A DNA stretch of 45,317 bases from IMG/VR virus record IMGVR_UViG_3300006987_000001, positions 1 to 45,317 of that record. One strand, given 5' to 3'. Below, piece after piece: positions 88-40,200 of the stretch. The translations under genes and the position numbers were made by a program. How positions within the stretch are numbered: position 1 is the first letter of the stretch; each line of letters opens with the position of its first letter. A model generated the notes under the pieces. The model worked only from the letters and a program-made list of their open reading frames with translations, ran no database searches and was not told the DNA's origin. The stretch is from a virus.

Positions 88-137
88 TTGCCTAATATTT
101 TTGGCTGGCTTGCCGTAGTTTGCGACAAACCTCTGTA

Positions 138-157
138 TGGGCACTTTGTGGGCACTT
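138..157 (+). repeat. Two direct copies of TGGGCACTT, 11 bp apart
   Basis: TGGGCACTT occurs at 138-146 and 149-157, one helical turn apart, between the tRNA and the integrase start. The position suits arm-type binding sites for the integrase. A small inverted repeat GTTTG-CGA-CAAAC lies at 118-130. The role is inferred from position only. Confidence 0.4.
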
Positions 158-217
158 CTTATAATCTCGCTTATCGGCTATGATACCCAAGTAAATATAC
201 GAAATAGGCAGGCTAAA

Positions 218-1474
218 ATGGCACGGGTTAAACTAACCAAGCGCTTTATAGACGCGCTTGAATACTCTGATAAAGCGGATATCATCCAAGATGAGTTGGT
301 CAACGGTTTTGCCGTGCGTACCAACAAGACAAATAAAAGCTACATGATTAGCAAACGGATTGGCGGCAAGATGATCCGTAAGTCTATCGGTGATTGCTCA
401 GTCATGACTTTGCAGGATGCACGCGAGCAAGCCATGTCTATCATTAGTGAATTGATGCAAGGCCGCGATCCATTCAATGATGATATGAAAGACGTGATAG
501 TTCCTACACTTGGTCAAGCTTATGAATATTATATTACTCATAAGCCGGGACTGAAGCAGTCGACTATCAACACCTATAATCGGCAGATACCAGGCAAGCT
601 GGCTGAATGGCAAGATAGGTCGATGAATGAGATTATGCAAAGCAATGTCACCGAAAAGCATTTAGAGCTTACCAAGTTGAGCCCGTCACAAGCCAATGCC
701 ACTTTTAGAGCCCTTAATGCCGTGTGGAATTTTGCTAGGCTAAGCTTTTTAGATAATTCCGAATCTCCTATTATTAAGCTAAGTCCGGTTGAGATACTGA
801 CAGCCAAAAAATTATGGAACACGGTTAAGCCTCGCACGACTTATCTAAACGAAGATACGATGGGTAATTATGTGCGTGTGCTCACTGATTTTAAGAGTGA
901 GGACTTCCACAACATGCAGCCGCATAGTAATAATGCACGCGATATCATGCTGCTATTTTTATGCACTGGCATACGTGCCAGCGAAGGCTATACACTTAGG
1001 TGGGATTTTATCGACTTAAAACACGGCACCATGACCATTCACGAAACTAAGAACGGTGATACTTTGCATGTGCCATTGGGTAAAGTCATGTGCGCAATGA
1101 TGGGGCATCGTCACCACTACCGAAAAAATGAGCCTTGGGTATTCCCTTCTCGCTTGACTGAGCATGATGGAAATCTGACCGACATATCAAGGCAGTATAG
1201 AAATATTGGTGATGCAGCTGGCATTTGTATCACGCCGCACGATCTACGCCGGACCTTCTCGACCATTGGCGATATTCTTAATTTAAATATATCGGTGATT
1301 AAGCGACTTATGAACCATAGAACGTCGAAGGCGTCAGATGATGTGACATTACAGTACATTCAAGTCAGTCAAAAAAGATTGCGTACTGCAATGAATGATA
1401 TTGAAGAGTTTATTTTTAATGAGGCTGGCATGTCACAAGAGGAGGTTATCGAGAAGTTGTACAAGATTTACTAG
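218..1474 (+). CDS. int: Tyrosine-recombinase phage integrase (P4-type)
   Basis: This 418-aa site-specific recombinase would integrate and excise the prophage at the adjacent tRNA. The N-terminal part resembles the DUF4102 arm-binding domain of P4-type integrases, followed by a SAM-like core-binding domain and the catalytic domain. With the start at 218, catalytic residues are visible: R253 (in TGIRAS), H341-x-x-R344 (HDLRR), H367 (MNHR) and the nucleophile Y380 (TLQYIQ). I chose ATG 218 because the family begins just there (MARVKLTKRFIDAL). A longer in-frame reading from 137 runs through the presumed arm-site repeats and has no ribosome binding site. It is the only gene in the rightward direction. 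The last helix (MNHR) departs from the usual LGH, which is common among tRNA-targeting integrases. Confidence 0.95.
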   Translation: MARVKLTKRFIDALEYSDKADIIQDELVNGFAVRTNKTNKSYMISKRIGGKMIRKSIGDCSVMTLQDAREQAMSIISELMQGRDPFNDDMKDVIVPTLGQAYEYYITHKPGLKQSTINTYNRQIPGKLAEWQDRSMNEIMQSNVTEKHLELTKLSPSQANATFRALNAVWNFARLSFLDNSESPIIKLSPVEILTAKKLWNTVKPRTTYLNEDTMGNYVRVLTDFKSEDFHNMQPHSNNARDIMLLFLCTGIRASEGYTLRWDFIDLKHGTMTIHETKNGDTLHVPLGKVMCAMMGHRHHYRKNEPWVFPSRLTEHDGNLTDISRQYRNIGDAAGICITPHDLRRTFSTIGDILNLNISVIKRLMNHRTSKASDDVTLQYIQVSQKRLRTAMNDIEEFIFNEAGMSQEEVIEKLYKIY

Positions 1475-1505: not shown

Positions 1506-1731
1506 TATTACCTAATATATTATTTGAGGTGTAAACCCTAGTCGCTAGGGCTGTGTTGACAGATAGAGCGAACGTAGTCAGACCAGCGGTGCTACGACAT
1601 GCAAAAACACTGGCAGATGATGTGCGTTTCCTTACCTCCGTATCACCGCGCATGAGTCATCCGATTGATACCCGTAAAGATTTCTTAAGGTATTTGGGCA
1701 AAAGCCGCTAATTACAGTTAGCGGCTTTTTT
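1506..1731 (+). ncRNA. Structured small RNA A (possibly C4-like), paralogue of RNA B
   Basis: This stretch of about 226 nt has a promoter and a terminator but no credible reading frame. Three hairpins can be drawn. Stem 1 pairs CCCTAG (1536-1541) with CTAGGG (1545-1550). Stem 2 pairs CGTAG (1573-1577) and ACC (1582-1584) with GGT (1588-1590) and CTACG (1592-1596). Stem 3 pairs GATGA-TGTGCG (1616-1626) with CGCGCA (1647-1652) and TCATC (1657-1661). The 20-nt loop of stem 3 contains ACCTCCGT, an anti-Shine-Dalgarno sequence. The downstream neighbour RNA B can form the same three stems from different bases. Phage P1/P7 C4 antisense RNA is the closest family I can name, because of the prophage setting and an antirepressor gene in the same phage. 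I recall the C4 consensus only loosely, so the family name is tentative; the structure is seen directly. Confidence 0.65.
1701..1731 (+). terminator. Terminator of RNA A
   Basis: An 11-bp perfect stem, AAAGCCGCTAA with TTAGCGGCTTT, is followed by T residues. Confidence 0.9.
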
Positions 1732-1751
1732 ACGTCTAGCTTTTAGACGTA
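1731..1751. repeat. 8-bp inverted repeat after the RNA A terminator
   Basis: TACGTCTA (1731-1738) and TAGACGTA (1744-1751) form a perfect inverted repeat around a 5-nt loop. It has no T-run and no known role. It could be an operator or a 3' end structure. Confidence 0.45.
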
Positions 1752-1783
1752 CTTAGAACTGTGCATGGGAATTACCATAGACC

Positions 1784-1808
1784 AACTGTCCGGGAATTCC
1801 GGATAGTT
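1784..1808. repeat. 10-bp inverted repeat between RNA A and RNA B
   Basis: AACTGTCCGG (1784-1793) pairs with CCGGATAGTT (1799-1808) around GAATT, with one G-T pair. It lies about 110 bases upstream of the RNA B promoter and looks like a protein-binding site. The function is unknown. Confidence 0.45.
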
Positions 1809-1883
1809 CAGTTACTGCCTAATTCTCGGTAACTAAAATTTTTGGCAAAAAAAGCTTATTGAATTAAAGTTGAGTTTGCTGTA

Positions 1884-1912
1884 ACTTAATCGTAATAATT
1901 ATTGCTTATAAT
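1884..1912 (+). promoter_or_regulatory. Promoter for RNA B
   Basis: A perfect -10 TATAAT lies at 1907-1912, with a weak -35 (ACTTAA, 1884-1889) at 17-bp spacing. The predicted start is near 1919. Confidence 0.55.
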
Positions 1913-1918
1913 GATTAT

Positions 1919-2118
1919 GCCAGTGACAGTGAAGCCTAGCTACTGGGCCTGTATTACAGAGAAGTAGACAGTACCAGCCATCGGTGTACTGCATAGAAAA
2001 AACAATGGCAATTAACGCATGGCTCACCTTAAGGTTACATTCCACCATGTGAGTTAATCGAGTAACGCACGAGACGCATAGAAAAAGCCGCTACAAGTTA
2101 TCTTATAGCGGCTTTTTC
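1919..2118 (+). ncRNA. Structured small RNA B (possibly C4-like), paralogue of RNA A
   Basis: A second, promoter-to-terminator, non-coding unit of about 200 nt. It repeats the architecture of RNA A with diverged sequence. Stem 1 pairs GCCTAG (1934-1939) with CTGGGC (1943-1948), including a G-T pair. Stem 2 pairs CAGTACC (1969-1975) with GG (1983-1984) and TACTG (1987-1991). Stem 3 pairs TTAAC and CATGG (2012-2022) with CCATG (2045-2049) and GTTAA (2053-2057). The shared primary sequence is mainly the CCTAG loop region, ACCAGC/GGTG in stem 2, and the following AAAAACA-TGGCA segment. Paired positions differ between A and B while pairing is kept, which supports a functional RNA structure. The stem 3 loop holds CTCACCTT, again complementary to ribosome binding sites. 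The target is unknown. Confidence 0.65.
2082..2118 (+). terminator. Terminator of RNA B
   Basis: AAAAAGCCGCTA (2082-2093) pairs with TAGCGGCTTTTT (2106-2117). It closely matches the RNA A terminator. Confidence 0.9.
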
Positions 2119-3038: not shown

Positions 3039-3046
3039 TTCTAGCA

Positions 3047-3141
3047 ATAAAAAACCCCATCTAAATTAATAGGTGGGGTTAGTTGGTTTTTTCTGCGCTA
3101 CTTTACTCGAGTTTTCACACAGTCTCGGCGACCAAGCCAAC
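3047..3141 (-). ncRNA. Predicted small RNA D, about 95 nt
   Basis: A leftward unit running from a consensus extended -10 promoter (3148-3156) to a strong terminator (3048-3080). No reading frame is present. Near the 5' end TTGGC can pair with GCCGA. The body is otherwise unlike RNA C, although promoter and terminator tail are shared. It begins about 78 bases downstream of the stop of the secreted 118-aa protein, and its terminator would also end that gene's mRNA, so a processed 3' UTR product is an alternative. Confidence 0.5.
3048..3080 (-). terminator. Terminator of RNA D and of the 118-aa protein mRNA
   Basis: Leftward, a 10-bp stem of AACCCCACCT with AGATGGGGTT (one G-T pair) is followed by six T and ATTGCTAG. 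Confidence 0.85.
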
Positions 3142-3147
3142 AAGGTA

Positions 3148-3213
3148 ATTATAGCAGCTAAACCTAGCTATATGACAACGTTTTACGATACATATAAAGA
3201 CGTTTATACACCT
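3148..3213 (-). promoter_or_regulatory. Promoter region of RNA D
   Basis: Leftward, TAGCTGCTATAAT gives a consensus TGC-TATAAT (TATAAT at 3148-3153). The upstream elements GGTG-TA-TAAACGTC and TTATATG match those at the RNA C promoter. Confidence 0.6.
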
Positions 3214-3218
3214 ATGGA

Positions 3219-3575
3219 TTAGTAGCAGCCAAACTGCGTGCAAGTCTTGCTGTAATAATTACCTTTTGAATCTGTGCCAGAATACGTTGTACCAATAGAG
3301 CCGTTGTTCTGTATCGTTTGATTCCACGTATTGCCGTTTGAACTGCTGCCGCTTTGATAGGTAGTATTGCCATACGTGTTTGATGTTTGGCTCCATGTGC
3401 TACCAGTACGCGGATTATTACCCGTCATATAAGTCGTGTTGCCAAACTTATTAATCTGATAGTTATTGCCAGACTGCGGATCATTACAAGAATAAAGCGT
3501 ATCGGACCCAAAACACGAGGCATTAGCCCCAGTTGCAAACAATCCACTCAATAATAAAATAGCCAGTTTATTCAT
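3219..3575 (-). CDS. Secreted repeat protein, 118 aa (candidate lysogen-expressed gene)
   Basis: The N-terminus is a good Sec signal peptide (MNKLAILLLSGLFATGANA, cleavage after ANA near residue 19), so the mature protein of about 99 aa is periplasmic or outer-membrane associated. The mature part is rich in G, N, T, S and Y and has imperfect repeats of about 17-20 aa with the pattern YGNTTY-x-SG and TW-x-QT, suggesting a beta-rich fold. Cysteines occur near the start (ASCFG, YSCND) and at the end (KTCTQFGCY). The ribosome site AAGG precedes ATG 3575. A well-formed promoter and a terminator make it independent of the late operon that ends just upstream. No family is recognised. Its setting is that of a prophage moron gene, expressed in the lysogen and acting on the host surface; that is inference. 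Confidence 0.8.
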   Translation of the reverse strand: MNKLAILLLSGLFATGANASCFGSDTLYSCNDPQSGNNYQINKFGNTTYMTGNNPRTGSTWSQTSNTYGNTTYQSGSSSNGNTWNQTIQNNGSIGTTYSGTDSKGNYYSKTCTQFGCY

Positions 3576-3670: not shown

Positions 3671-6600
3671 TTACGTGCCAGCCAATTCCTCCTGCCTTAA
3701 TGCTAGGCTGTCCTGAATATTTTGGCGCTCGGCACTACCGAAGTCTTTACGCTCGACGCGCTTCTCTGCTGACTTCTCAATTTTATCGATATCAACATTA
3801 AAGTGCTCGGCGTTACGCTCATTCCACGCATCCATCTCGTTATACAGTGCATCGACGCGCTCATCATTTTCTTGATAGATAGCTTCTGCTAAGTGCTTGC
3901 TAAAGTAATCCGTCTTAGCTTTGAGCATATTTTTCATGTCATAAGCATTACTACGGTCACGCCCCGGTCTAGCATTATTAGCTGGGTTAAACTGCATTGC
4001 TTTAATCACGGCATCGGTTTTATCCAAGTCCATAATCTTATCGCCTTTGGTGTTTCGGTATGAGCCAGTCAATGCAATCTCGGCACCAGACGCGGCGTCA
4101 CGAATGTATCGAGGTGAAGCAGTGATAAGTGCGTCTTTATACTTTCCGTCGGCTGCCATTGAAGCAGCTGAAAAGAAACTTTCATAAAACCCTGACGACG
4201 CGCCTAAAATTTCAGCCCAATCAGTTGGACCCGGTCTAATAACGTCAGTACCAGGTATGACATTACCTAAACTTGAACGGCCATAGATATCGACACGTCC
4301 TTTTTCGCTGGCAAGCCCGTACATAAGCGCATCTGCATTACTCTTACCAAGCAAGCCCTCCAAGTAATCAGGAAGATTAAAGGCTTTACCGAATACGCGA
4401 TAAGCGATACCTTCAAAGATATCACGCAAGTCATCGGCAAACGGTAAGCCTAACATGCCAGCTAACGCAAACTGCCACATCATAGCGACGGCCAATGCGC
4501 TGACCTCTTTATCCCTGCCATGCCTAATCATCTGCTCAGTGTAGTTGATGGTGAACTGCTTAAACACTAGGATTAATGGCCCGTACTGACCTAGCTTGCC
4601 ATTACCACGTGCCAGCCCTGATCGGTTGCCTTTGTTATAGATACCCTGCGTCTGCTGAATGATTGATACCGCAAAGTCATATTTGCTATCAAAGCCCTTT
4701 TCTTTCAGCTTAGCATCGCCCATGTCTTTCGCAACTCTAAAGGCGGCTATCATAGTGCTGCGGCGGTTCATAGATTCCGATACTTCCGCTGGCCATCCTG
4801 CGGCTGCTTCGATATTACCCCAAACGCCACTTGCTACGCCTTGCTTGCCACGCTCCAAGCCTTTAATCATGTAGATATTTTGCGGATCAAGATGACCTTC
4901 ACGCGCCATGCGCAAGTAATCATCCCTATTAACCCATGCTGGCAAGTTATCTTCAAAGCCTGTCCAGCTTGGTGTTGGTAGTCCTGCGACCTTTTTACCC
5001 ATGTTAATAGCAGCTGATCCTGCGTGCTTACCTACCATTGCCAGTGCTTGCGCCATGTAAGCATGTGCTCTTGCTGCACCAGCATAAGCGGTCAGCTTAG
5101 GAATCGTTTGAGTGAATGGCTGTGTTAAGTTTAGGAATAAGAACGCTGGCGAGAACCCCATAAAGTAATGAAACATCATGCTGCGCGTTCCAGCAAACTC
5201 TTCTTGTGGGTTTTCCATGTTCTCAAAAACTTTCTGGGCCTCGTTTTGTAGGTTGCCGTCCTCAATATCTTGGATAGAGCGCTCAATCTCGCTGTTATAA
5301 AGGCCGCGACCACTGTAACGAGCATTACTCATAACGAATGATGACAGCACACGCGGCATATCTTCACTATAGCCTGGCACTTTCTTACGATGAATCAGGC
5401 GTTTTAGTGCGCTACGATCACTGACCGCAACTTTTAAGTATGCTTGATAAGCGCCATCGTCATCTAGTCCTAACTCGGCGGCAAATAATTGCACCGTTTC
5501 AGGCGATAGTCCTTTATTCTTAAACTGTTTAAACGCTTCCGGGTTTAGTGTGCCAGTGCCTACAGTAAATTGTGTTTCGTCGTAGCGCTCTTTCAGTTCC
5601 TTAATAGCCTTACGCTGCTGTCCTTTTGTTTCGTACAACTCGAACAAGTCCAAGTCATTCGATACTTTATCGCGCACCTCTACTGCATAGTGTCCAAAGC
5701 GCATCAGCGGTGCATAACCATCTTCGACCAATTTTTCATACTTGCCAGCGATAGCGCCCATCACGTCAAACACAGCATCTAACTGCTTTTGCATACGTGC
5801 TTCTGCTTTTGGTGTAATCAAACCACCTTTAGCCAGCTTCTCCAATTCGTCAGTCATGTACTGCTGTAGTGCTAGGTTATGGAAGATAGGGTGCATACCT
5901 TGCAGTTTTAACCTGTGGATAGTTTCGATATTAACCAGCTTCGTGCCTTTGGCTAATGACGATAGCGTATCGACTGTCATATTCATTACTGAACCATCAA
6001 TTGCTTGACGTGCTCTGCGGTAAAAATGAATATCCTTATCAGTTAAATCAAACATCGTTTGCAGCTCGTTATCACCCCACACCTTGTCCGCCATGGTGCC
6101 GTCAAAAATTGCTTTCGATACGCGCTCCATGGCTGCCTTTTTCTTACCGACAATCAAACGGGTATCCCATATCTCAGGCAAGTACGTTTGAATGAGTCCA
6201 GCCTCGTTGTTCTCATAAGCGATGCGCGCTTGCACGTTGTCCGTAAATATCTTAAAGACAGGATTAAGTAGAGCTACATGCTGCGGCGTTGCTAGATGGC
6301 GTCTAAGTAGTAGATTCACTCCAAACTTGGATGACATGGTTGTCGCTTGTGCTAGTGCCACTCTATCACGTGCTTTCTCTTTAGCGGTGACTGGCTTGCC
6401 GTCGGTGCCAAGTGTTGAGTAGCGGCGGCTGTAGCGAGTATCAGGGTTATTAGCATCAAACCACTCTCTAAATGCTGGCGTGTTTGCCTGTTGCACGCTT
6501 TCTTGACTAAACTGCATTTGTGCGGCTGTCATATTTTCAATACCAGCAATAGTCATATCACTTGCGCTCTGTTCTGCCAAGCGCTTAACCATACGCTCAG

Positions 6601-9600
6601 CAAGCTGGGTAATATCATTCGGTGTAATCTTTAATTGAACGCCAGTGTTTGCGCTCACCCATGCACGCACGCCAGCCATAACGCGATTAACAAAGCGTTT
6701 AATGACTGCAAGCGGACCGCCACGCTCTGTTGCTTGCGCGTACTCAGTGATTAGGTATGGAATATATTCATCGCGTGCTTCGCTATCGCTGCCAGTCATT
6801 GCCTCTGCGCGACTCTTAGCTCTGACTGCATACTTATTACCAGACCTTACTAAGGCGTAAAAGTTTTCCATCAGGCTCATATAAGTTTGCGGTGCAAGCA
6901 TTGATTGAATACCAGCATGACCACCTAATTCGTGGAGTAACGTTGCGACGGCTGTACCAGTTGTAAGATTGTCAGCGATCAATACAACCTTACCTCTATG
7001 ATAAAAACCTTCGGCATCACTTGGGATAAGCAAGCGACCATCAGCATTTACAAAGTCGTTGAGGCTGCGCACTCGCAATTTGCCAGACTTGATAAGCGCT
7101 GAGACTACTTCTTTGCCGAAACGATTTTGTAGAACAGTAACAACCTGCTGGCTAGTGGTGCCAGTATTGCCTTTAGCTGGATTAGTTTTTGAAAATTTAG
7201 GCTGCTCATCTTTCGCTGGCACGCGGTCAGCGTCGGTCAATGGTCTTGCGCTGTTTGATCCTGATGCCTGCGCTTTTATGGCTGCCGCTTCTGCGCGTAG
7301 CGTGTCATCAAGCTCCTTGTATTCTGCGTGCTTCTCTCTGCGCTCAACCTCATTCTCAAAACTTTGGCTGGCGCGGCGCTCAAAGTTATCAGCATCCTTT
7401 TTAAATCCTTCTATCTTACTTTCGATAGCTGCTTTGTAGTCGGCAAGCCCATTCACACGATTAATAATACTGGTAGCAATACCTGACGCGCTGACTTCGC
7501 CGCTATTGTTATCGAATAGCACGTTATCGTTAGACTTAGGGATAGAGATATCAGCATCAGCGATAAAGGTTTCGCCAAGCATGACGCCATTATAGACCAC
7601 GTTATAGCCTGACGCGGTGCCAAGTACGTGTTCGCCTTGTGCTTGTGTCGCCTTTAATTTGTCAAAAGCCTTGATGATAGCCTCGCCAAACTCTTGACGG
7701 TTATCAAACGTCTTGCTGCCCACTTTACCAATGACGCCGCCTGTCTCAATGCTTTTATGATTGGCTAACAGTTTATTAACTTCGCTCAGCTCGCGCTCAG
7801 CACGCACAGCGCTCTCTCTACTGCGTTTGGCTTCGCGGCTGTTCTCAATCCTTGCGTTCTCGTAGGCTGAATAATAACGGTCCAGTCTTTCAACGTCTGC
7901 TGCCAGTCCTGCCAGCTGTAACGCTCGCGGATCACCTGACGATAATGCGCTGGCTTGTTCAAACGCGCTTGCCTCACTGATATCATCCATGTGACGCATT
8001 GAGATATCACCATTCATTGCCTGCTGAATAAAGCGAGCTTTACGCGCCACCATTCCCCACATGGTACTGTCATAACTGCCTTTAGTGGCATACGCTCGAA
8101 TAACGACTTCTTTATTCTGGTTGCCTTGACGAATGATACGACCTTCACGCTGTTCAACGGTAGCTGGATACCATGGAGAATCTAGGTGCGCTAAATGTGT
8201 TAAGCGTTTTTGAGCGTTCACGCCTGTTTCCATGTTCGAGCCACCAATCAAGATACGCTTACGACCTTGGCGCATATCTTCAAACAACTTGCCTTTTTTA
8301 GCGTGGCTATTAGCATCTGCCATAAAAGCGATATGGTCTGGCTCAACGCCTAAGCGGATAAGCTCGCTATTAATCCATGCTTTCATATCAAAGCCGGTAC
8401 TGGCTGCCGATTGTGCGCCCAGTCCGATATTGGTAAACAGCATTTGCGCGCCGCCGGTCAACTCGTCAACATTGCCCTTGCCGTCGTGGTACTCGTTGTT
8501 TGCGGTATCATGATAGGCTTGCGCCATATCTGCAATGGCTCGGTTTAACTTGCTGTTGGGGTCACTAGGTAAATCAGGGTTATTAAAGCGTAGATCGATA
8601 GCACCAAAACGACCATCATTAATGATCTTTAAAATGTTGTCATCGCCTTTTTTCGGCTTGCCGCTGCGATTGCGTGTTGCGGTGATACGGTCTGCTAAGC
8701 CTTGTTGAAACTCGTCAAAACCGTCCGGCGCTGGCACGCTGATAATCTGACGCCCACCACCTACGATATCGGGACGTTGAACAACATCGCCCAACTGGTC
8801 ACTGGTCAATACATCCATAAACCAGCGCACGCGGCTCATAAGCTCCGGCACGTTTAGGAATTTCGCAAAGCGTGGCACCACCTCATAATTACCAGCGGCG
8901 TTCTGCTCTAAGCCTTTAACCACTTCACCAAACTGATTAGACCAATTATCAAAGTGGTGTAACCCATCTTTGCGTAACTGCTTCGGCTGGAAGTACGTTT
9001 GTACTGAAAACAGCTCGCCCATCGTATTGGTAACGGGTGTTCCTGACGCCCCAACGATGGCGCGTGTCGGATTTTTCTCGCGGATAAGCTCAATCTTCAT
9101 CTGCAAGTCGCTTGCCATTTGCGAGCCACTTGAAACAATGCCTTTGATTCTGCCCTGCCTTGTGGCATAGCTTAGCTTGCGGTACTCGTGCATCTCATCA
9201 ACGATCAGTTTATCGACGCCCATATCCTCAAAGAATGTGGTGTCGTCTTTGGCTTCCGCTTTTAGCAAGTCGGTTAGCTTGGTTTCCATCGTTTGAATAT
9301 TGCGTTCAAGCTGGCGTACTGACTGCGAATTATCCTCACCCTTCACGCTTTTGGCGGTCAATAATGCTTCGCGCCAGTCATTGAGTGTGTTTTCAAGAAA
9401 TTTCTTTTGCGTCTCTGGCTTCACGCCAATCTTCCCAAACGCGGTATGAGTGATGATAATAGCATCGGGATTATTAACCGATATCTCAGCAACAAACTGC
9501 TTGCGGTTATGGGTATGAAAGTTTTGTTCATCAGCGACTACGATATCGGCGGCTGGATAAAGCATTAAAAACTCTTGGCTAAACTGCGCAAGCATGTGAT

Positions 9601-12600
9601 TAGGCACCACAAACATAGGCTTGTTGATAAGTCCTAGTCGCTTCTCTTCCATCGCTGCGGCAATCATGGTGAATGTCTTGCCAGCGCCGACCGCATGGTT
9701 AAGATATACATCACCTTGGCTGACCACGCGATAAATACCGGTCTTTTGATGCGGCCTTAGCTTGATCTTGCTCGACATGCCAGCCAATGTTAAGTGATCG
9801 CCGTTAAAGGTTGGCGGCACAATGTTGTTGTAGTTCTTGTTGTAATACTCAGCCAGCGTGTTGGCGCGTTCGGTATCTTTCCATATCCAATCTTTAAATG
9901 CCTTTTGAATCTTACTTGCCATTTGTTCTGCAAGCTCGGTTTTCTCTGCATCGGTATATGATTTACCATCTACCGTATAAGACACGGTGATAGGCTTGCT
10001 GTTTAAGATGGCGTCCATCAGCTCTTTGGTGGTTTTGCTTGGCGTCTGGTAGTCTGAGTTACGCGAGTAACCCGAAACATCCCATATTCCGGCGGCACCT
10101 GAGTAGCTGGCGGTGATATTAGCATCCAACACTTCTTGTGAGAACTGCTTGATAACCTCACCGGGTATCCAGCCTGAGCCTAAGTTGCTGGAGATATCGT
10201 TAGGCGCGATAAATTTTGGCTGCACATCCTTTAGTGCGTCAACATTCTTTTGATAGATATTATCTTTGGCTGCCATTGCTTCAGCGGTTGCCAGCTTTTC
10301 AACGACGTTTCCTGATAGATATATCTCTGCCATTTCCACAGCACCCGTTTCTGGGTTAGTGAATACTTGACTGCCTAGATCAGCGATAACTTCTTGCTCG
10401 CTCTTGTTGACCAATTTAGCAATTTGCTTAATATTAGGCGTACCCACTTCGTTGAGTACATACACTAAGGCGTCCTGCGTGGTCTTGATGGTAGGCGTCT
10501 TTGGCTTATTGAGCGTGCGGCCTTTAAAGTAACTGCCTTTCTCGATAACCGCATTTTTACCGACGACCTCACCATCAACGATGTTTTCAAGCGCACTTGC
10601 CACATAGCCGTCGACATCAAGGAATAGTATCGCCTTGTTTGCAAAGCGCGTGGTAGTAATCTCTTTGCCGTCTGCTCTCTCAGTGGTTGAGATAGTGTGC
10701 GCCATTAAGCGACCATGCTTTTTGACAAAGCTGTCATAGGCGGTATTGAGGCTATCTAAGGAGTCCTGCCAATTAGGATTGTCGTTTAACTGGTCTTGTT
10801 GCGATTGCTTAAAGGCATCACGCACGCCGGTATAGTCGGTTAGGAATTGAATTTGCGGATCAGTTAGGGCAATACGCTTGCCATTGGTGCCGTAACGATG
10901 GGTTAATGGCTTGCCTACGCCGTCAATCACCTTCATGAGATTGCCGTCTTTTACATAGACGCCGCCTTCACGCTGCTGGCTAGACTTAACGCCATAATCA
11001 ATCTCAGCGACCTTAGCAGCTTCAGCATTACTGCCGCGTGCTGGCTTGAATATATCTTTCGGTAGCTGCGCGATAGCGGTTTCTATTTGACCGGCCAAGT
11101 TATTGCTATCAGACTCTACGGTATAAGTGGGTCCAAACTGACCACTGGTTATCGTATTACGGCCCAACACCATGTTAGGGTTATCAATAAAGTATTCATT
11201 GATTGAGATTTTTTCACCATCGATTGTTTTTTCTTGGGTGTCCGTCCACTTAACCCCGTTGCTTACTTCATCAGGTAGTCGCTTACGCAAGAAGATAATA
11301 TCGGTAACAACGGCTGTTCCAGCCTCATCTTTAAACGCGGTATTCGGCAAACGGATTGCGCCAATCAGATCAGCTTGTTCAGCAAAACTATCGCGTGCTG
11401 CTGTGTTGGTTTTATCCATCGAGCCTTTAGAGGTGACAAACGCCATGACGCCGCCGGGCTTTAGCTTGTCCAGCGTCTTAGCAAAGAAGTAATCATGAAT
11501 TAGGTAGGGCTTTTTATTCTTGCCAGCACCATAATTATATGAGATATCAGCAAACGGCGGGTTTCCGACTGCTACATCAAAATGATTGTCCGGCAATTTA
11601 ACTTTAGTGTAGTCGCCCATACTCATGTCTGACAATGGATATAAGTGCTTGGCTATTAATGCAGTCGTTGGATCAAGCTCAACGCCTACATAGTGAGACT
11701 TGCTTGCCATATCACGAGGCATTAGGCCATTAAACACGCCTATGCCGCTGGCTGGTTCGAACACTTGACCGCCTTTAAAGCCAAACTGCTCTAACGCGGC
11801 ATAGATACCGTTTACGATTGACGGTGGTGTGTAGTGTGCATACTGAGTGGTGCGGCGTGCGGTTGCATACTCGCTGTCTGTCAGTAGGGATTTTAGTTTT
11901 TCGCCCAGCGCTTCCCATCGTGGCGATGAATAGCCTTTAGTTGGGTGAGGGAATATTTCAATCTTAGATGAACCCCAGCCTTTATAGTCAGCAAGCAATG
12001 CTTGTTCATCAGGCGTGGCATGACGCCCTTCGCTTTCCAACTCTTGCACAAGCTCAATGATTTCGACGTTGCGCTCGCCAATCTCAAACCAGCTTGGTTG
12101 TTTGGCGTTCTCGTCTCTTGGCGGTATGGCGTAGTCAGTAGCTTTTACTGCGACGGATTTAGCAGACTTCGCATTTGCTCCATCATTTGATTGAGTGCTT
12201 CCCGTTCTGCTTCTGCTGTCAGTAGATGTTGCTCGCTTATTCTTTCCTGCGGATTGTCCAGCTTCATCACCGTCATTAGTATCTGATCGGTTGCTACGTC
12301 CATCGATGTTAGGTACGTCGCTAGTAAGCTCTGCTTCAGCTCGTCCAGTGTTCCGGCTTTCTGCATCTGCTTGGTCTGCTGTGGATAACTCTCCATCAGC
12401 ACGCTGTCTATCGTCTTGATTACTTGTTCCGGCGTCATTGTTGTTATCCTTTTTGGCTGCCAATTCTTCTTTGGTTAAGTAGCGATCCTCTCTTGGCTGC
12501 TGCTCAATGCCAGTCGGAGTGATTGATACCGTTTCATTGTTAAATATACCGTATTCTTCAATCGCACGTACACCACTTTTGTTCTCGTACAATGGTAGGC

Positions 12601-15600
12601 CGGATTGGTTTTCGCCTACAAAGGTTTTCATTTGCGGCCCACTGCCTACGGTTTGTGGGTATTTTGGCTTGGCTGGCGCGATAGACTCGCTCGCCTGCTC
12701 GGACTCAGCCTTTAACTGATCGTACTCGCGCTTACTGTCCGCTACACTGGTCATACCTTCAGTATCAAGTCCGTCCCAGTTTCGAGCGCCTTCCCAAAAC
12801 GATAGTAATTGAGGCTTGATATTATCTCCAAAGTCCTCAACCATTAATTTAGCATAATCACCAAACTTGCGCACACCGCTTTCAATGTATGCACCTGCCA
12901 GCGTCATACCAGCAATTGCCATTTCTGGGTCAAAGCCTGAGTTGACTTGCCCCATCTTAGATTTCAATAGTGCGCGTGCGGCTGCTACCTTGTCTTCGGT
13001 GAATAATTTGTTGTCAGCAAAACGACTTTTGGCTTCTTGTTCGCTCACATCATTCTGTGATTTCTCGCTAGCGGATTTCTTCGCCGCTGCTCGTTTGGCT
13101 GGCGCGGACTGCTCGCCAGTCGGTGTAGATGGCGTGGTTCGGCTGCTAGTTAATTCTGCAAACTGCTCGTCGGTAATATTTTTGGGTGACTTGGTTGCGG
13201 ACGGCGCCTCAAAGCTACCTACACGAGAACCAAACATATTGTTAAATTCAGCAATACTGCGTCTTTGGGGTGAAAAATTCTTATCCGCATTGGGCGAGTT
13301 GGGATTAGGAATAAATAGCGTGCTCACTGAATTTACGCCGCCGCTACTATTAAACTCAACGTTAGTTATTTCATACTCATTATTGTTTTTCGCGGTAACT
13401 CTATCCCCTGCGACCAACTTCCTCTCGGAGTTGTCTTGGCTTTCCGATACCGTTTCCGCTTTTGCTACATCGGCTTGAGGCGTGCCTTCAGCTTTCGGCT
13501 GAATCTCAAAGCGAGACTTGCCAGCGCTCACAACCTCATGTGTACCGGACAAGCCTTTCTTGGCAATAAACGCTTGCGCCTTGTCGTTACTACCAAACCA
13601 TTTAGCCTGACCATCTTTACCGATAGCAACATCATTGTTAGGTGCTACGGTATTTTGCTGTGGTGTTGGCGTACTATTGCTTAGTGAGCGCCCTTGTATT
13701 TCATCGACGCGCTTAGCGAATGTCTCAAACTCTGCGTCTGTTCCACCGTACTCACCATCTTCATTGATAGTCATACCCAATTCAGTAGCAGCTTGCTCTT
13801 GTGCTTGTGTATAACTTGGTTTTGCTGGCGCGTTCGGCACAATCTCAAAGCCACCACCTTTCACCTGTTTAATGGTAACGCTATCAGGGTCAAGCTTTTG
13901 TTTCTTGATAGCAGCTTTTGCGGCCGGCTGGCTCTTATAGATACCCTCGTCAGTAGTCGGCGCTGGTATATTGATGACTGGGTTTTCATCGGTTAGCTGG
14001 GTAGCAGCTGGCTTCGTCCAGCCTACCTTCTCGCTTATCGTCTCTTGAATTACCCTGTTAATTTCAGGCTGCGGCAATCCTGCTTCTTCGGCGCGTTTCT
14101 GTGCGTCAAACATAGCTTGTGGGTCGCTGCCATAGTTATTATTAATATCATCTTTAAGGTTATCAAGCGTATAACTAGCAGCCTCCTGCTCAGCCTTCAC
14201 TGGTACTTGCTCGCTTGTCTGTACGGCTGCGCCTTCACGACTTTGGCGAATGCCGTCTAAGCGCTCAGTGAACCACTGGTGCAACTCTTTTTGCACGCCC
14301 TCTGGCATAGACTGCCAATCGGCCTTAGCGACGTTCTGCTCAACTTGCCCGCCAAACGCATCCGCGATTGCTTTCGCCTTGGCTGCGGCTGGCATGTTGC
14401 TATCCCAAAAACGTGCCAGCTTAAACGGCGCGCCATCAGCACCCACGATAGTAGTATCAAACGATTCATTTTCATAAGGCTGTGCAAGCTGCTCGCGTGT
14501 CGATAGCAACTCATCTTCTTTGGCACGATCAGCTTCGCGCTGTTCAATTTTTTGCGCGACAGCTTGTTTTTCTGCATCAGTAGTAGCGGCTTGCGCCTCT
14601 TGCTGTAACTGACCGTTGATTTGCTGCTGTTTTGCGCGCTCACTGGCGATGTAATCATTAATACTTGCGGTAGCACCTTTGATGCTTTCTTGCTGCTGTG
14701 CGAACGCTGTGTCCTGTTCTGTGGCTGCGGCTCGACTGACCACGCCTGACAATCCTTGCTTACCTTCACCGCGCTTGCTGTCGTACCAGCTTTGGGCGGC
14801 TGCAATTGATTCCTCTAATGGCTTCTCACTACTACCGTCTTCAATCGCCTCATCAAGTGCTGCTTGCTCTGCAATAAGCTCAGCAATCTGTGCGTCTTGG
14901 GCATCAAGCTCTTTTTCGCTCAATACTGGTGCGGCTGGCGTTGCTTGCGGGGCTGGCGTGCCATCTGGGTTTAATGCGTTCTCAAAGCCTTGGTCATCCA
15001 GTTCAGTAGCGCCATCGACTTGACCGTCAAATTCGGTTGCCGTGCTATTGGTTGGTTCAATACGTGGTGCGCGACGTGCCAGCGAGGTGCGAGGAATACT
15101 TGCCTTTTCTGCCTCTGCTGCCATGGCATCAAGTGCGGCGCGAGTTTCTTCCACACGCGCCGTTAGTGCCTGACCTTCTGGTGATCGTGGCGATACAGCT
15201 TCAATCTGCTGTTGAAGCTGCGGTATTTGTCCGGCAACTTCAGCATAGGCTTGTTGTGCGGCTTTTAAATCATCTTGTGCTTGCTGTAGTTTTGAGTTGC
15301 GTGTGCCAACATAGACACCGCCGCCCATTATACCGCCCAAGATACCGCCCATCAGCATCGCTTCCTTAAGCTGCGGCTGATTTATCTTGTCTTTACCTCC
15401 TGCACGCAAATCAACGGCAGCTTTCTGTGCTGTGTAGTCGGTATAACCTTCTTGCAACGCTTCTTCAGCGACGTTCAATCCGATAATGCCTGTGCCAACG
15501 GCTGCCGGTAGTGCGTACTTTGCCACCTTGCCAGCATCAGCCTTGACCGCAAGTTTGTTAAATACTTTTTGCCCAAACTTACTGACGGCACCACCAGTGG

Positions 15601-16690
15601 CGCGGTTGGCAGTGAATGAGCCTATGCCCGGCGCAAGCATACTAAGTGCTAATGTTGCCAAGCCTACCGTATGCCCTGATTCTTCTGCTATGCTGCTAAT
15701 AGTTTGCTCGCGTGCCTTTTCCCACGCCTTATCTTCATCTAGGCCAGATTTTATATTGTCGTTAAAGTGATTCTCAAACAATTCTTTCGAGCGAGGCTTA
15801 TTAGCGAGCTGCAAAGCAGTGACTTCTTCGATCTCTTGTTTGGTGCTATCATTACCATCACCGTATGCTTGTGGGTACATGGTCGCGGCGGCTGTGCCGT
15901 ATGCTGTGGCGGCTGTCATCTTCGCACCAGCACCGGCTAACTGCGCACCTTTTGCGGCGGCACCGGCACCTGTAAAGCTTAAAGCAAGGTTTGGTATTTG
16001 CTCAACGGCAGACAAGGCAAGCTTCTGTCCAAAATTTCCGTTCTGCTGAATATCAGCGTAGGCTGGATAGACTTGCTGTAAGTTATCCTCATGGCGCTCT
16101 AACGCCTTAGCGCCTCGGTCAAAGATTCCACCGTCGTCATTTTCGCCAATATCAGCGGCAAGCTGTAACGGATAACGCAAAGCTCTTGATGAGCCAGTAG
16201 CAAGCGCGCCCAATACCGCTTCGGCAGTATCACGAGCTGCCATTGCTGCGGAAGTTCTTTTGACGTAGGCGTCACCCCCTATTTTCTCTGCGTCTTTTAA
16301 TCTGTGTTCGTTATCTACACTACGCTGCGTCTGCCCTTTTTTTCTTAACGTACCTATCTGCTGCTGCGCTTTGGCTTTAGCTGATTGCAAGTCTTTATAG
16401 TTTTTATTAAAAAGACTGTCATAAGTTTGTTGATAGGCTTTACTGCCCGGCTTTAAATGTGGTGCCCGTGTTTTAAGCTCTTGCTTCAGCTTAGCCTCAA
16501 CCTTTGGCTTCCATGTGCTGTTCTCCCACTTACGTAAGGCCGCCGCTACTACTTTTTTATCTTCATTAGCGTAGCTTTTGCCAGCAATATTCAGTAAGCC
16601 TGAATACGGAATTGACTGCTCGCTGCGTTTTATCTGCTGGCTAGTTAAAGTGCGCTCAGCAATACCTAATAGTTTTTTATCTAAGCTCAT
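3671..16690 (-). CDS. Giant polyvalent protein: adenine methylase, SNF2-type helicase, zincin-like motif, LPD38-like C-terminus
   Basis: At 4339 aa this gene takes 29% of the window. The N-terminal 480 residues are helical with Ala/Gly-rich hydrophobic stretches (about 445-462, GILGGIMGGGVYVG), as in ejection proteins. A coiled, low-complexity linker follows, with two copies of a small domain (about 913-948 and 1027-1063). The methylase domain spans about 1540-1900, with SAM motif FEPASGIG at 1644 and catalytic NPPF at 1710-1713. The helicase spans about 2300-2950, with Walker A GAGKT at 2335-2339, DEMH at 2498-2501 and motif VI QREGRIIRQG from 2847. HELGGH at 3253-3258 is a metallopeptidase-type motif. 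The C-terminus resembles large-polyvalent-protein domain LPD38. Such proteins (P1 DarB and relatives) are packaged and injected to shield incoming DNA. Its place after two ejection proteins fits that role. The ribosome site is weak and the start lies 8 bases after the upstream gene. Confidence 0.9.
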   Translation of the reverse strand: MSLDKKLLGIAERTLTSQQIKRSEQSIPYSGLLNIAGKSYANEDKKVVAAALRKWENSTWKPKVEAKLKQELKTRAPHLKPGSKAYQQTYDSLFNKNYKDLQSAKAKAQQQIGTLRKKGQTQRSVDNEHRLKDAEKIGGDAYVKRTSAAMAARDTAEAVLGALATGSSRALRYPLQLAADIGENDDGGIFDRGAKALERHEDNLQQVYPAYADIQQNGNFGQKLALSAVEQIPNLALSFTGAGAAAKGAQLAGAGAKMTAATAYGTAAATMYPQAYGDGNDSTKQEIEEVTALQLANKPRSKELFENHFNDNIKSGLDEDKAWEKAREQTISSIAEESGHTVGLATLALSMLAPGIGSFTANRATGGAVSKFGQKVFNKLAVKADAGKVAKYALPAAVGTGIIGLNVAEEALQEGYTDYTAQKAAVDLRAGGKDKINQPQLKEAMLMGGILGGIMGGGVYVGTRNSKLQQAQDDLKAAQQAYAEVAGQIPQLQQQIEAVSPRSPEGQALTARVEETRAALDAMAAEAEKASIPRTSLARRAPRIEPTNSTATEFDGQVDGATELDDQGFENALNPDGTPAPQATPAAPVLSEKELDAQDAQIAELIAEQAALDEAIEDGSSEKPLEESIAAAQSWYDSKRGEGKQGLSGVVSRAAATEQDTAFAQQQESIKGATASINDYIASERAKQQQINGQLQQEAQAATTDAEKQAVAQKIEQREADRAKEDELLSTREQLAQPYENESFDTTIVGADGAPFKLARFWDSNMPAAAKAKAIADAFGGQVEQNVAKADWQSMPEGVQKELHQWFTERLDGIRQSREGAAVQTSEQVPVKAEQEAASYTLDNLKDDINNNYGSDPQAMFDAQKRAEEAGLPQPEINRVIQETISEKVGWTKPAATQLTDENPVINIPAPTTDEGIYKSQPAAKAAIKKQKLDPDSVTIKQVKGGGFEIVPNAPAKPSYTQAQEQAATELGMTINEDGEYGGTDAEFETFAKRVDEIQGRSLSNSTPTPQQNTVAPNNDVAIGKDGQAKWFGSNDKAQAFIAKKGLSGTHEVVSAGKSRFEIQPKAEGTPQADVAKAETVSESQDNSERKLVAGDRVTAKNNNEYEITNVEFNSSGGVNSVSTLFIPNPNSPNADKNFSPQRRSIAEFNNMFGSRVGSFEAPSATKSPKNITDEQFAELTSSRTTPSTPTGEQSAPAKRAAAKKSASEKSQNDVSEQEAKSRFADNKLFTEDKVAAARALLKSKMGQVNSGFDPEMAIAGMTLAGAYIESGVRKFGDYAKLMVEDFGDNIKPQLLSFWEGARNWDGLDTEGMTSVADSKREYDQLKAESEQASESIAPAKPKYPQTVGSGPQMKTFVGENQSGLPLYENKSGVRAIEEYGIFNNETVSITPTGIEQQPREDRYLTKEELAAKKDNNNDAGTSNQDDRQRADGELSTADQADAESRNTGRAEAELTSDVPNIDGRSNRSDTNDGDEAGQSAGKNKRATSTDSRSRTGSTQSNDGANAKSAKSVAVKATDYAIPPRDENAKQPSWFEIGERNVEIIELVQELESEGRHATPDEQALLADYKGWGSSKIEIFPHPTKGYSSPRWEALGEKLKSLLTDSEYATARRTTQYAHYTPPSIVNGIYAALEQFGFKGGQVFEPASGIGVFNGLMPRDMASKSHYVGVELDPTTALIAKHLYPLSDMSMGDYTKVKLPDNHFDVAVGNPPFADISYNYGAGKNKKPYLIHDYFFAKTLDKLKPGGVMAFVTSKGSMDKTNTAARDSFAEQADLIGAIRLPNTAFKDEAGTAVVTDIIFLRKRLPDEVSNGVKWTDTQEKTIDGEKISINEYFIDNPNMVLGRNTITSGQFGPTYTVESDSNNLAGQIETAIAQLPKDIFKPARGSNAEAAKVAEIDYGVKSSQQREGGVYVKDGNLMKVIDGVGKPLTHRYGTNGKRIALTDPQIQFLTDYTGVRDAFKQSQQDQLNDNPNWQDSLDSLNTAYDSFVKKHGRLMAHTISTTERADGKEITTTRFANKAILFLDVDGYVASALENIVDGEVVGKNAVIEKGSYFKGRTLNKPKTPTIKTTQDALVYVLNEVGTPNIKQIAKLVNKSEQEVIADLGSQVFTNPETGAVEMAEIYLSGNVVEKLATAEAMAAKDNIYQKNVDALKDVQPKFIAPNDISSNLGSGWIPGEVIKQFSQEVLDANITASYSGAAGIWDVSGYSRNSDYQTPSKTTKELMDAILNSKPITVSYTVDGKSYTDAEKTELAEQMASKIQKAFKDWIWKDTERANTLAEYYNKNYNNIVPPTFNGDHLTLAGMSSKIKLRPHQKTGIYRVVSQGDVYLNHAVGAGKTFTMIAAAMEEKRLGLINKPMFVVPNHMLAQFSQEFLMLYPAADIVVADEQNFHTHNRKQFVAEISVNNPDAIIITHTAFGKIGVKPETQKKFLENTLNDWREALLTAKSVKGEDNSQSVRQLERNIQTMETKLTDLLKAEAKDDTTFFEDMGVDKLIVDEMHEYRKLSYATRQGRIKGIVSSGSQMASDLQMKIELIREKNPTRAIVGASGTPVTNTMGELFSVQTYFQPKQLRKDGLHHFDNWSNQFGEVVKGLEQNAAGNYEVVPRFAKFLNVPELMSRVRWFMDVLTSDQLGDVVQRPDIVGGGRQIISVPAPDGFDEFQQGLADRITATRNRSGKPKKGDDNILKIINDGRFGAIDLRFNNPDLPSDPNSKLNRAIADMAQAYHDTANNEYHDGKGNVDELTGGAQMLFTNIGLGAQSAASTGFDMKAWINSELIRLGVEPDHIAFMADANSHAKKGKLFEDMRQGRKRILIGGSNMETGVNAQKRLTHLAHLDSPWYPATVEQREGRIIRQGNQNKEVVIRAYATKGSYDSTMWGMVARKARFIQQAMNGDISMRHMDDISEASAFEQASALSSGDPRALQLAGLAADVERLDRYYSAYENARIENSREAKRSRESAVRAERELSEVNKLLANHKSIETGGVIGKVGSKTFDNRQEFGEAIIKAFDKLKATQAQGEHVLGTASGYNVVYNGVMLGETFIADADISIPKSNDNVLFDNNSGEVSASGIATSIINRVNGLADYKAAIESKIEGFKKDADNFERRASQSFENEVERREKHAEYKELDDTLRAEAAAIKAQASGSNSARPLTDADRVPAKDEQPKFSKTNPAKGNTGTTSQQVVTVLQNRFGKEVVSALIKSGKLRVRSLNDFVNADGRLLIPSDAEGFYHRGKVVLIADNLTTGTAVATLLHELGGHAGIQSMLAPQTYMSLMENFYALVRSGNKYAVRAKSRAEAMTGSDSEARDEYIPYLITEYAQATERGGPLAVIKRFVNRVMAGVRAWVSANTGVQLKITPNDITQLAERMVKRLAEQSASDMTIAGIENMTAAQMQFSQESVQQANTPAFREWFDANNPDTRYSRRYSTLGTDGKPVTAKEKARDRVALAQATTMSSKFGVNLLLRRHLATPQHVALLNPVFKIFTDNVQARIAYENNEAGLIQTYLPEIWDTRLIVGKKKAAMERVSKAIFDGTMADKVWGDNELQTMFDLTDKDIHFYRRARQAIDGSVMNMTVDTLSSLAKGTKLVNIETIHRLKLQGMHPIFHNLALQQYMTDELEKLAKGGLITPKAEARMQKQLDAVFDVMGAIAGKYEKLVEDGYAPLMRFGHYAVEVRDKVSNDLDLFELYETKGQQRKAIKELKERYDETQFTVGTGTLNPEAFKQFKNKGLSPETVQLFAAELGLDDDGAYQAYLKVAVSDRSALKRLIHRKKVPGYSEDMPRVLSSFVMSNARYSGRGLYNSEIERSIQDIEDGNLQNEAQKVFENMENPQEEFAGTRSMMFHYFMGFSPAFLFLNLTQPFTQTIPKLTAYAGAARAHAYMAQALAMVGKHAGSAAINMGKKVAGLPTPSWTGFEDNLPAWVNRDDYLRMAREGHLDPQNIYMIKGLERGKQGVASGVWGNIEAAAGWPAEVSESMNRRSTMIAAFRVAKDMGDAKLKEKGFDSKYDFAVSIIQQTQGIYNKGNRSGLARGNGKLGQYGPLILVFKQFTINYTEQMIRHGRDKEVSALAVAMMWQFALAGMLGLPFADDLRDIFEGIAYRVFGKAFNLPDYLEGLLGKSNADALMYGLASEKGRVDIYGRSSLGNVIPGTDVIRPGPTDWAEILGASSGFYESFFSAASMAADGKYKDALITASPRYIRDAASGAEIALTGSYRNTKGDKIMDLDKTDAVIKAMQFNPANNARPGRDRSNAYDMKNMLKAKTDYFSKHLAEAIYQENDERVDALYNEMDAWNERNAEHFNVDIDKIEKSAEKRVERKDFGSAERQNIQDSLALRQEELAGT

Positions 16691-39969: not shown

Positions 39970-40200
39970 CTACTTAATGCCGTTGCGATTGATATTGCTA
40001 TTCTTCCAGTCACCGGCATAAAAACCGTAACCTATTAGCGTGCACTTACTACCTAGATGCTCACCCCATAAATCTTCGCCCCTATGGTGCTCTCTGCTCA
40101 ATATCACCTCAAAAGCATTCGCATTACCATCCGAGTCAACGGCGGCACTAATATATTTTTTGTCCAGCTTCTTAAGATGCGCCCGCGTTAATAGTTTCAC
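39970..40200 (-). CDS. Hypothetical protein, 76 aa
   Basis: A 76-aa protein with a GTG start that overlaps the stop of the preceding gene in GTGA; GGAGG lies 7 bases upstream. The sequence is basic at the start (LLTRAHLKKLDKKYISAAVD) and then mixed (FEVILSREHHRGEDLWGEHL), with an ending AGDWKNSNINRNGIK. No family is recognised. It stands between a 94-aa unknown and Q in the early operon, the lambda nin-like position for small accessory genes. Confidence 0.6.
   Translation of the reverse strand: MKLLTRAHLKKLDKKYISAAVDSDGNANAFEVILSREHHRGEDLWGEHLGSKCTLIGYGFYAGDWKNSNINRNGIK

Follow-up and report, generated by a model that had tools for sequence, protein, structure and literature searches.

A pair of divergent Proteo-phage-1 RNAs in a Psychrobacter-type prophage with a predicted double-pseudoknot core and a third hairpin

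The genome of a Psychrobacter-type prophage carries, close to its integrase gene, two structured RNAs related to the Rfam family Proteo-phage-1 (RF03044). The family itself is already known, yet it has no explained function and we found none in the literature searched. Comparison of about 80 homologues indicates that the conserved structure is larger than the publicly displayed model, consisting of two pseudoknots followed by a hairpin (H3) whose loop matches translation signals. Our preferred explanation, to which we give about even weight, is that both are trans-acting structured phage small RNAs with an H3 loop directed at Shine-Dalgarno (SD) sequences. Four things are new, as far as we could check: a divergent B type, an A-type and a B-type RNA that recur together, the extension of the structure by H3 and its CCU core, and covariation in support of the pseudoknots.

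The window, meaning the whole 45,317-nucleotide stretch that was analyzed, is the virus record IMGVR_UViG_3300006987_000001. Its first 44 positions are the 3′ portion of a tRNA gene, and an integrase gene (137-1474, plus strand) follows upstream of RNA A. The two RNA genes proposed in an earlier sequence-only reading are present where that reading placed them, with RNA A extending from about 1506 to 1731 and RNA B from about 1919 to 2118, both on the plus strand and both with predicted starts, that of RNA A being set by its −10 box. Their description as promoter-to-terminator units stands in part. Nearly identical terminators (AGCCGCTA...TAGCGGCT plus a T run) end RNA A at 1700-1731 and RNA B at 2082-2117, and −10 boxes precede both RNAs (TATACT at 1494-1499, extended by a TGT in front, for RNA A; TATAAT at 1907-1912 for RNA B), but a consensus promoter scan on its own did not score above chance. 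The sequence TGTTATA(A/C)T also lies upstream of the A-type RNAs in loci L049 and L134, behind other integrases. A promoter-like stretch, GTGTGTTAGGT...TATGAT, is conserved before the A-type RNAs of L020, L024 and L128/Shewanella Y11, and is possibly a regulated phage promoter.

In an Rfam covariance search, the core of RNA A (1536-1618, plus strand) matches RF03044 at 47.3 bits, passing the gathering score of 42 bits. The core of RNA B (1934-2013, plus strand) matches over the full model length at 31.4 bits (E 0.0012 in 801 nt), under the gathering score, whereas its nearest relatives, L133 and L031, which belong to the same clade and are 61-64% identical to it, pass at 46.6 and 42.6 bits; we therefore call RNA B a divergent relative of Proteo-phage-1 and not a curated member. 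Both RNAs have the P1, P1a and P2 helices and the invariant GUG and AAAAAC of the family, and the window and its relatives share its setting in phages and prophages of Proteobacteria. These matches, the weaker one for RNA B included, agree with the earlier proposal of a structured prophage RNA family present twice. The RF03044 model as displayed is drawn without either pseudoknot and without H3, stopping before that hairpin. Its ends correspond to the outer strands of the two pseudoknots, and the original authors may therefore have seen them already.

Across the homologues the fold consists of two consecutive H-type pseudoknots, then H3, then a terminator. In pseudoknot I, helix P0 encloses the 5′ strand of P1, with the small hairpin P1a in between. 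In RNA A this element occupies 1536-1571, with P0 at 1536-1539/1547-1550, P1 at 1542-1546/1567-1571 and P1a at 1551-1554/1559-1562, and in RNA B it occupies 1934-1967, with P0 at 1934-1937/1945-1948, P1 at 1940-1944/1963-1967 and P1a at 1949-1952/1956-1959. In pseudoknot II, the loop of P2 pairs (pk2) with bases following the AAAAACA. This element spans 1573-1614 in RNA A (P2 1573-1577/1592-1596; pk2 1583-1586/1610-1613; invariant GTG 1589-1591 and AAAAACA 1603-1609) and 1969-2009 in RNA B (P2 1969-1973/1987-1991; pk2 1977-1981/2005-2009; GTG 1984-1986 and AAAAAACA 1997-2004), all on the plus strand. The three hairpins first proposed thus become a richer structure, in which the third hairpin persists and P0/P1 and P2/pk2 form the two pseudoknots.

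The pairing is kept with different bases in the two RNAs, as the earlier reading had noted, and throughout the family. P0 is formed by CCCT/AGGG in RNA A and GCCT/GGGC in RNA B, and elsewhere by CTGC/GCAG, CCAC/GTGG, AGCG/CGCT and others; P1 pairs include TCGCT/AGCGA, CTACT/AGTAG and CCAGG/CCTGG, among others, and P2 is CGTAG/CTACG or a variant. The pk2 pairs are CCAG/CTGG in RNA A, GCCAT/ATGGC in RNA B and GCCGG/CCGGC elsewhere, with GTCGG/CCGAC, GACGG/CCGTC and TGCGG/CCGCA in distant relatives. GTG and residues of the AAAAAC type are among the invariant bases.

Covariation among homologues, the check that the earlier reading had proposed, supports both pseudoknots. A descriptor parse scores 22.3 on the real sequences and 8.9 on shuffled ones, and RNAalifold finds P0 and P2 unaided, with two-sided changes in eight of nine pairs. 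For P2 together with pk2, pairing is 98.1% and the covariation score is 0.548 compared with 0.186 in shuffles; the support for pk2 comes from two of its five pairs in the close set and from the arms of distant relatives. Because MAFFT misaligns the P0 and P1 arms of Psychrobacter copies relative to those of Pseudomonas, these helices were counted on the arms alone, giving 99.4% pairing, two-sided changes in all nine pairs, and a score of 0.984 versus 0.271 in shuffles, a value reached by none of 500 shuffles; this count leans towards structure since the excised arms were chosen for pairing, a bias from which the descriptor parse and RNAalifold are free.

Some copies (L009, L099) have an extra hairpin between the 5′ strand of pk2 and the invariant GTG. 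Four distant relatives (L141, L142, L143 and L145) keep pseudoknot II and occur in differing settings, L141 lying before a tape-measure-like gene and L143 near a relaxase-like open reading frame. A double match in genome G145 (L135, L138) lacks pk2 and the AAAAAC and is probably a false positive.

H3 follows the pseudoknots directly and has a lower and an upper stem separated on the 3′ side by an asymmetric stretch of 1-4 nt. In RNA A it lies at 1616-1661, outside the Rfam model, with the anti-SD-type loop TTTCCTTACCTCCGTATCAC at 1627-1646, and in RNA B at 2011-2058, with the loop CTCACCTTAAGGTTACATTCCA at 2023-2044 (plus strand in both). The asymmetric stretch is TGAG in RNA A, GA(G) in RNA B and a single G in many Pseudomonas-type RNAs; the distant relatives L141-L143 also retain H3, with a GTG bulge in this position. 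The bases of the H3 stems change while pairing is kept, and nearly all of the divergent RNAs have the hairpin with its 3′ bulge.

The loop of H3 varies between copies, although UCCUUA, which is identical to the 3′ tail of 16S rRNA, is kept in the A-type RNAs compared, including the Shewanella one. A motif chosen post hoc, (A/C/T)CCT(C/T), is found in ten of 16 independent H3 loops where 3.9 are expected (p 0.001), and anti-SD words stated beforehand are found in six of the 16 (2.5 expected, p 0.03); words of this type are not enriched in control stretches of the same loci. The enrichment of a CCU(C/U) core across independent lineages is suggestive of an anti-SD signal. The anti-SD loops of the sequence-only reading, ACCTCCGT and CTCACCTT, are both present, but their exact letters are not conserved: the A copies of L020, L049 and L024 lack ACCTCC, and the B copies of L020 and L049 have CATCTT in place of CACCTT, so literal conservation of either word was rejected.

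RNA A and RNA B share 42% identity. In a tree with moderate support at several forks they occupy different clades, A grouping with RNAs that occur singly in other Psychrobacter prophages and in Shewanella phage Y11, and B with L133, L031 and L112. Identity and tree together rule out a recent duplication of A into B, and argue that the two represent a pair of old subfamilies. A spacing of 310-400 nt separates A and B where they occur together, which we found only in the related Psychrobacter prophages of the window, L020 and L049; L024 and L134 have A alone, and L031, L112 and L133 have a B-type RNA alone. Neither a tandem duplication in the usual sense nor a link to the integrase, both of which the sequence-only reading had singled out, therefore holds up. 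The integrases around the pair differ, that of L020 being in the opposite orientation, and the pair stays while the integrase gene changes; the integrase is an incidental neighbor of the RNAs and no fixed partner. The small gene at 3219-3575, by contrast, is shared downstream of the pair.

Two short promoter-to-terminator units on the minus strand (2850-2945 and 3045-3165) face RNA B. Each has a TTTAG(C/T)TGCTATAAT box and an intrinsic terminator about 80-100 nt later, and orthologues in L020, L049 and L162 retain the box and a CCTCCA stretch; these units are possibly a second small RNA family. At the end of its late region, the window also has one 4339-codon open reading frame (3671-16690, minus strand).

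Proteo-phage-1 RNAs are common. A pattern-based scan identified 119 loci in viral contigs, about 75 of them with the RNA, and further copies were found in a Shewanella phage, annotated Pseudomonas phages and whole genomes. In the genus to which G369 belongs, probably Pseudomonas, 51 of the 199 genomes sampled have a match, as do five of 392 drawn evenly from the wider order and one of 369 in a class-level sample; the same search matched none of 14 control genomes.

Complementarity between the H3 loops and the gene start regions of the window is not, overall, above that of shuffled loops. For both loops the strongest duplex in the window is with the start of the gene at 39970-40200 (−22.4 and −18.0 kcal/mol). 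This candidate mRNA target was rejected, since 3.5% and 25% of shuffled loops pair equally well and relatives lack the gene. The genes neighboring the RNAs show no excess complementarity to the H3 loops and provide no target in cis.

The reading we prefer is of two paralogous, separately transcribed small RNAs of the Proteo-phage-1 family. Transcription would start from the −10 boxes. In each RNA two H-type pseudoknots, in which GUG and AAAAACA are invariant, make up a rigid platform at the 5′ side; H3 then displays a pyrimidine loop built around CCU(C/U), and an intrinsic terminator closes the unit. Acting in trans, the platform would bind a host protein or particle while the H3 loop pairs with the SD region of one or more mRNAs and so alters how these are translated around the early-late phase or during lysogeny, and the different loops of the two copies could confer two specificities on one platform. 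At the A-type loci checked (the window, L020, L049, L024, L134 and Shewanella Y11) the RNA and its terminator are followed by genes on the opposite strand, and there is therefore nothing obvious to regulate in cis; this arrangement argues for a separately made RNA, and the trans action foreseen in the sequence-only reading is probable. Also in its favor are the Rfam matches to both copies, the covariation of both pseudoknots, the near-constant H3 with a loop enriched in anti-SD-type words, the promoter-like stretch before A-type RNAs, and the terminators that follow 50 of 79 RNAs at a few fixed distances. Counting against a small RNA reading, two pseudoknots with invariant unpaired bases fit the binding of a protein or particle better than they fit a purely base-pairing RNA; the target searches were negative, the CCU(C/U) motif was chosen post hoc, and at most Pseudomonas-type loci the stretch separating the RNA from the terminator upstream of it accommodates no promoter.

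The Pseudomonas-type phages suggest a different role, that of a cis-acting late-leader element in which structure in the nascent RNA would modify RNA polymerase so that the late genes are read through surrounding terminators, by analogy with the put sites of HK022 and the lambda late-leader (6S) region on which Q acts. In these phages the RNA follows a Q-position gene (phrog_3373, 39 loci) and NinG and precedes the holin, lysis and terminase genes, which are encoded on its own strand, and at L031, L112 and L133 it lies about 15 nt after a late-regulator-like gene (Mor-like by eye only) and before an endolysin-like gene. Intrinsic terminators lie upstream of 45 of 79 RNAs, mostly ending 19-30 nt away, and downstream of 50 of the 79, at about 100-118, 150 or 257 nt. 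A late-leader role is possible there. As an account of the pair in the window it is unlikely, as same-strand downstream genes to be read through are lacking at the six A-type loci, and the Q-like gene and terminase of the window are about 34-37 kb from the RNAs. A structural decoy that binds a host protein, RNA polymerase or the ribosome without base pairing, for counter-defense or takeover, is in our view similarly doubtful. The two covarying pseudoknots with their invariant unpaired GUG and AAAAACA would suit it, as would the mobile position of the RNA among different phages and the likeness of the A-type loops to 16S rRNA, but no partner protein recurs beside all copies, and the variable H3 loop offers no fixed ligand site outside the CCU core.

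Some copies begin 5-25 nt after a stop codon (L025, L030, L063 and L031) and many end at a terminator, as would a passive 3′ UTR or a structure stabilizing terminators at operon ends. We consider this highly improbable, since stability alone needs no long-range pseudoknots or invariant loop bases, a promoter-like stretch of their own precedes the A-type copies, and the L020 copy adjoins the attachment site with a divergent integrase. The P1/P7 C4 antisense RNA, which acts on an antirepressor mRNA and was the closest family that the sequence-only reading would test, is barely credible here; it is a phage RNA that likewise works by loops complementary to ribosome binding sites (PMC12197685), but cmscan returned no C4 match to RNA A or RNA B at E up to 10, which counts against that assignment, and the fold is different. 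A more speculative proposal, which we think improbable as it stands, is that the double pseudoknot presents a mimic of the 16S rRNA 3′ tail (CCU(C/U), or UCCUUA in the A type) that redirects translation start at SD sites. If true, redirection would occur during the phage cycle, and the tandem divergent copies would constitute a two-specificity set.

An RNA present in about a quarter of the sampled genomes of one genus, probably Pseudomonas, is a common one, and there are several handles for finding its partner or targets: the full-length structure model of two pseudoknots plus H3, the recurring position at the early-late boundary in many phages, and the compact Psychrobacter locus with its two divergent copies.

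Among known systems, P1/P7 C4 differs from RNA A and RNA B in lacking a covariance match to them and in its target, none being found in their neighborhood, while their fold is pseudoknotted. The put RNA of HK022 is also a phage RNA structure near terminators, in lambdoid phages; it is set apart as a pair of plain hairpins acting in cis where early operons begin. Type III antitoxin RNAs (ToxI) form tandem pseudoknots too, from short tandem repeats with a toxin gene behind them, whereas RNA A and RNA B are units of about 200 nt with separate terminators, and the two open reading frames nearest to them matched no toxin family in PHROGs. The lambda 6S late leader and the StxS and AgvB-type RNAs of lambdoid prophages lie after the late regulator and before the lysis genes, the same slot that Proteo-phage-1 occupies in the Pseudomonas-type phages; we know of no structure that they have in common with it, and they are unlike the RNAs of the Psychrobacter and Shewanella phages, which are convergent with their neighboring genes.
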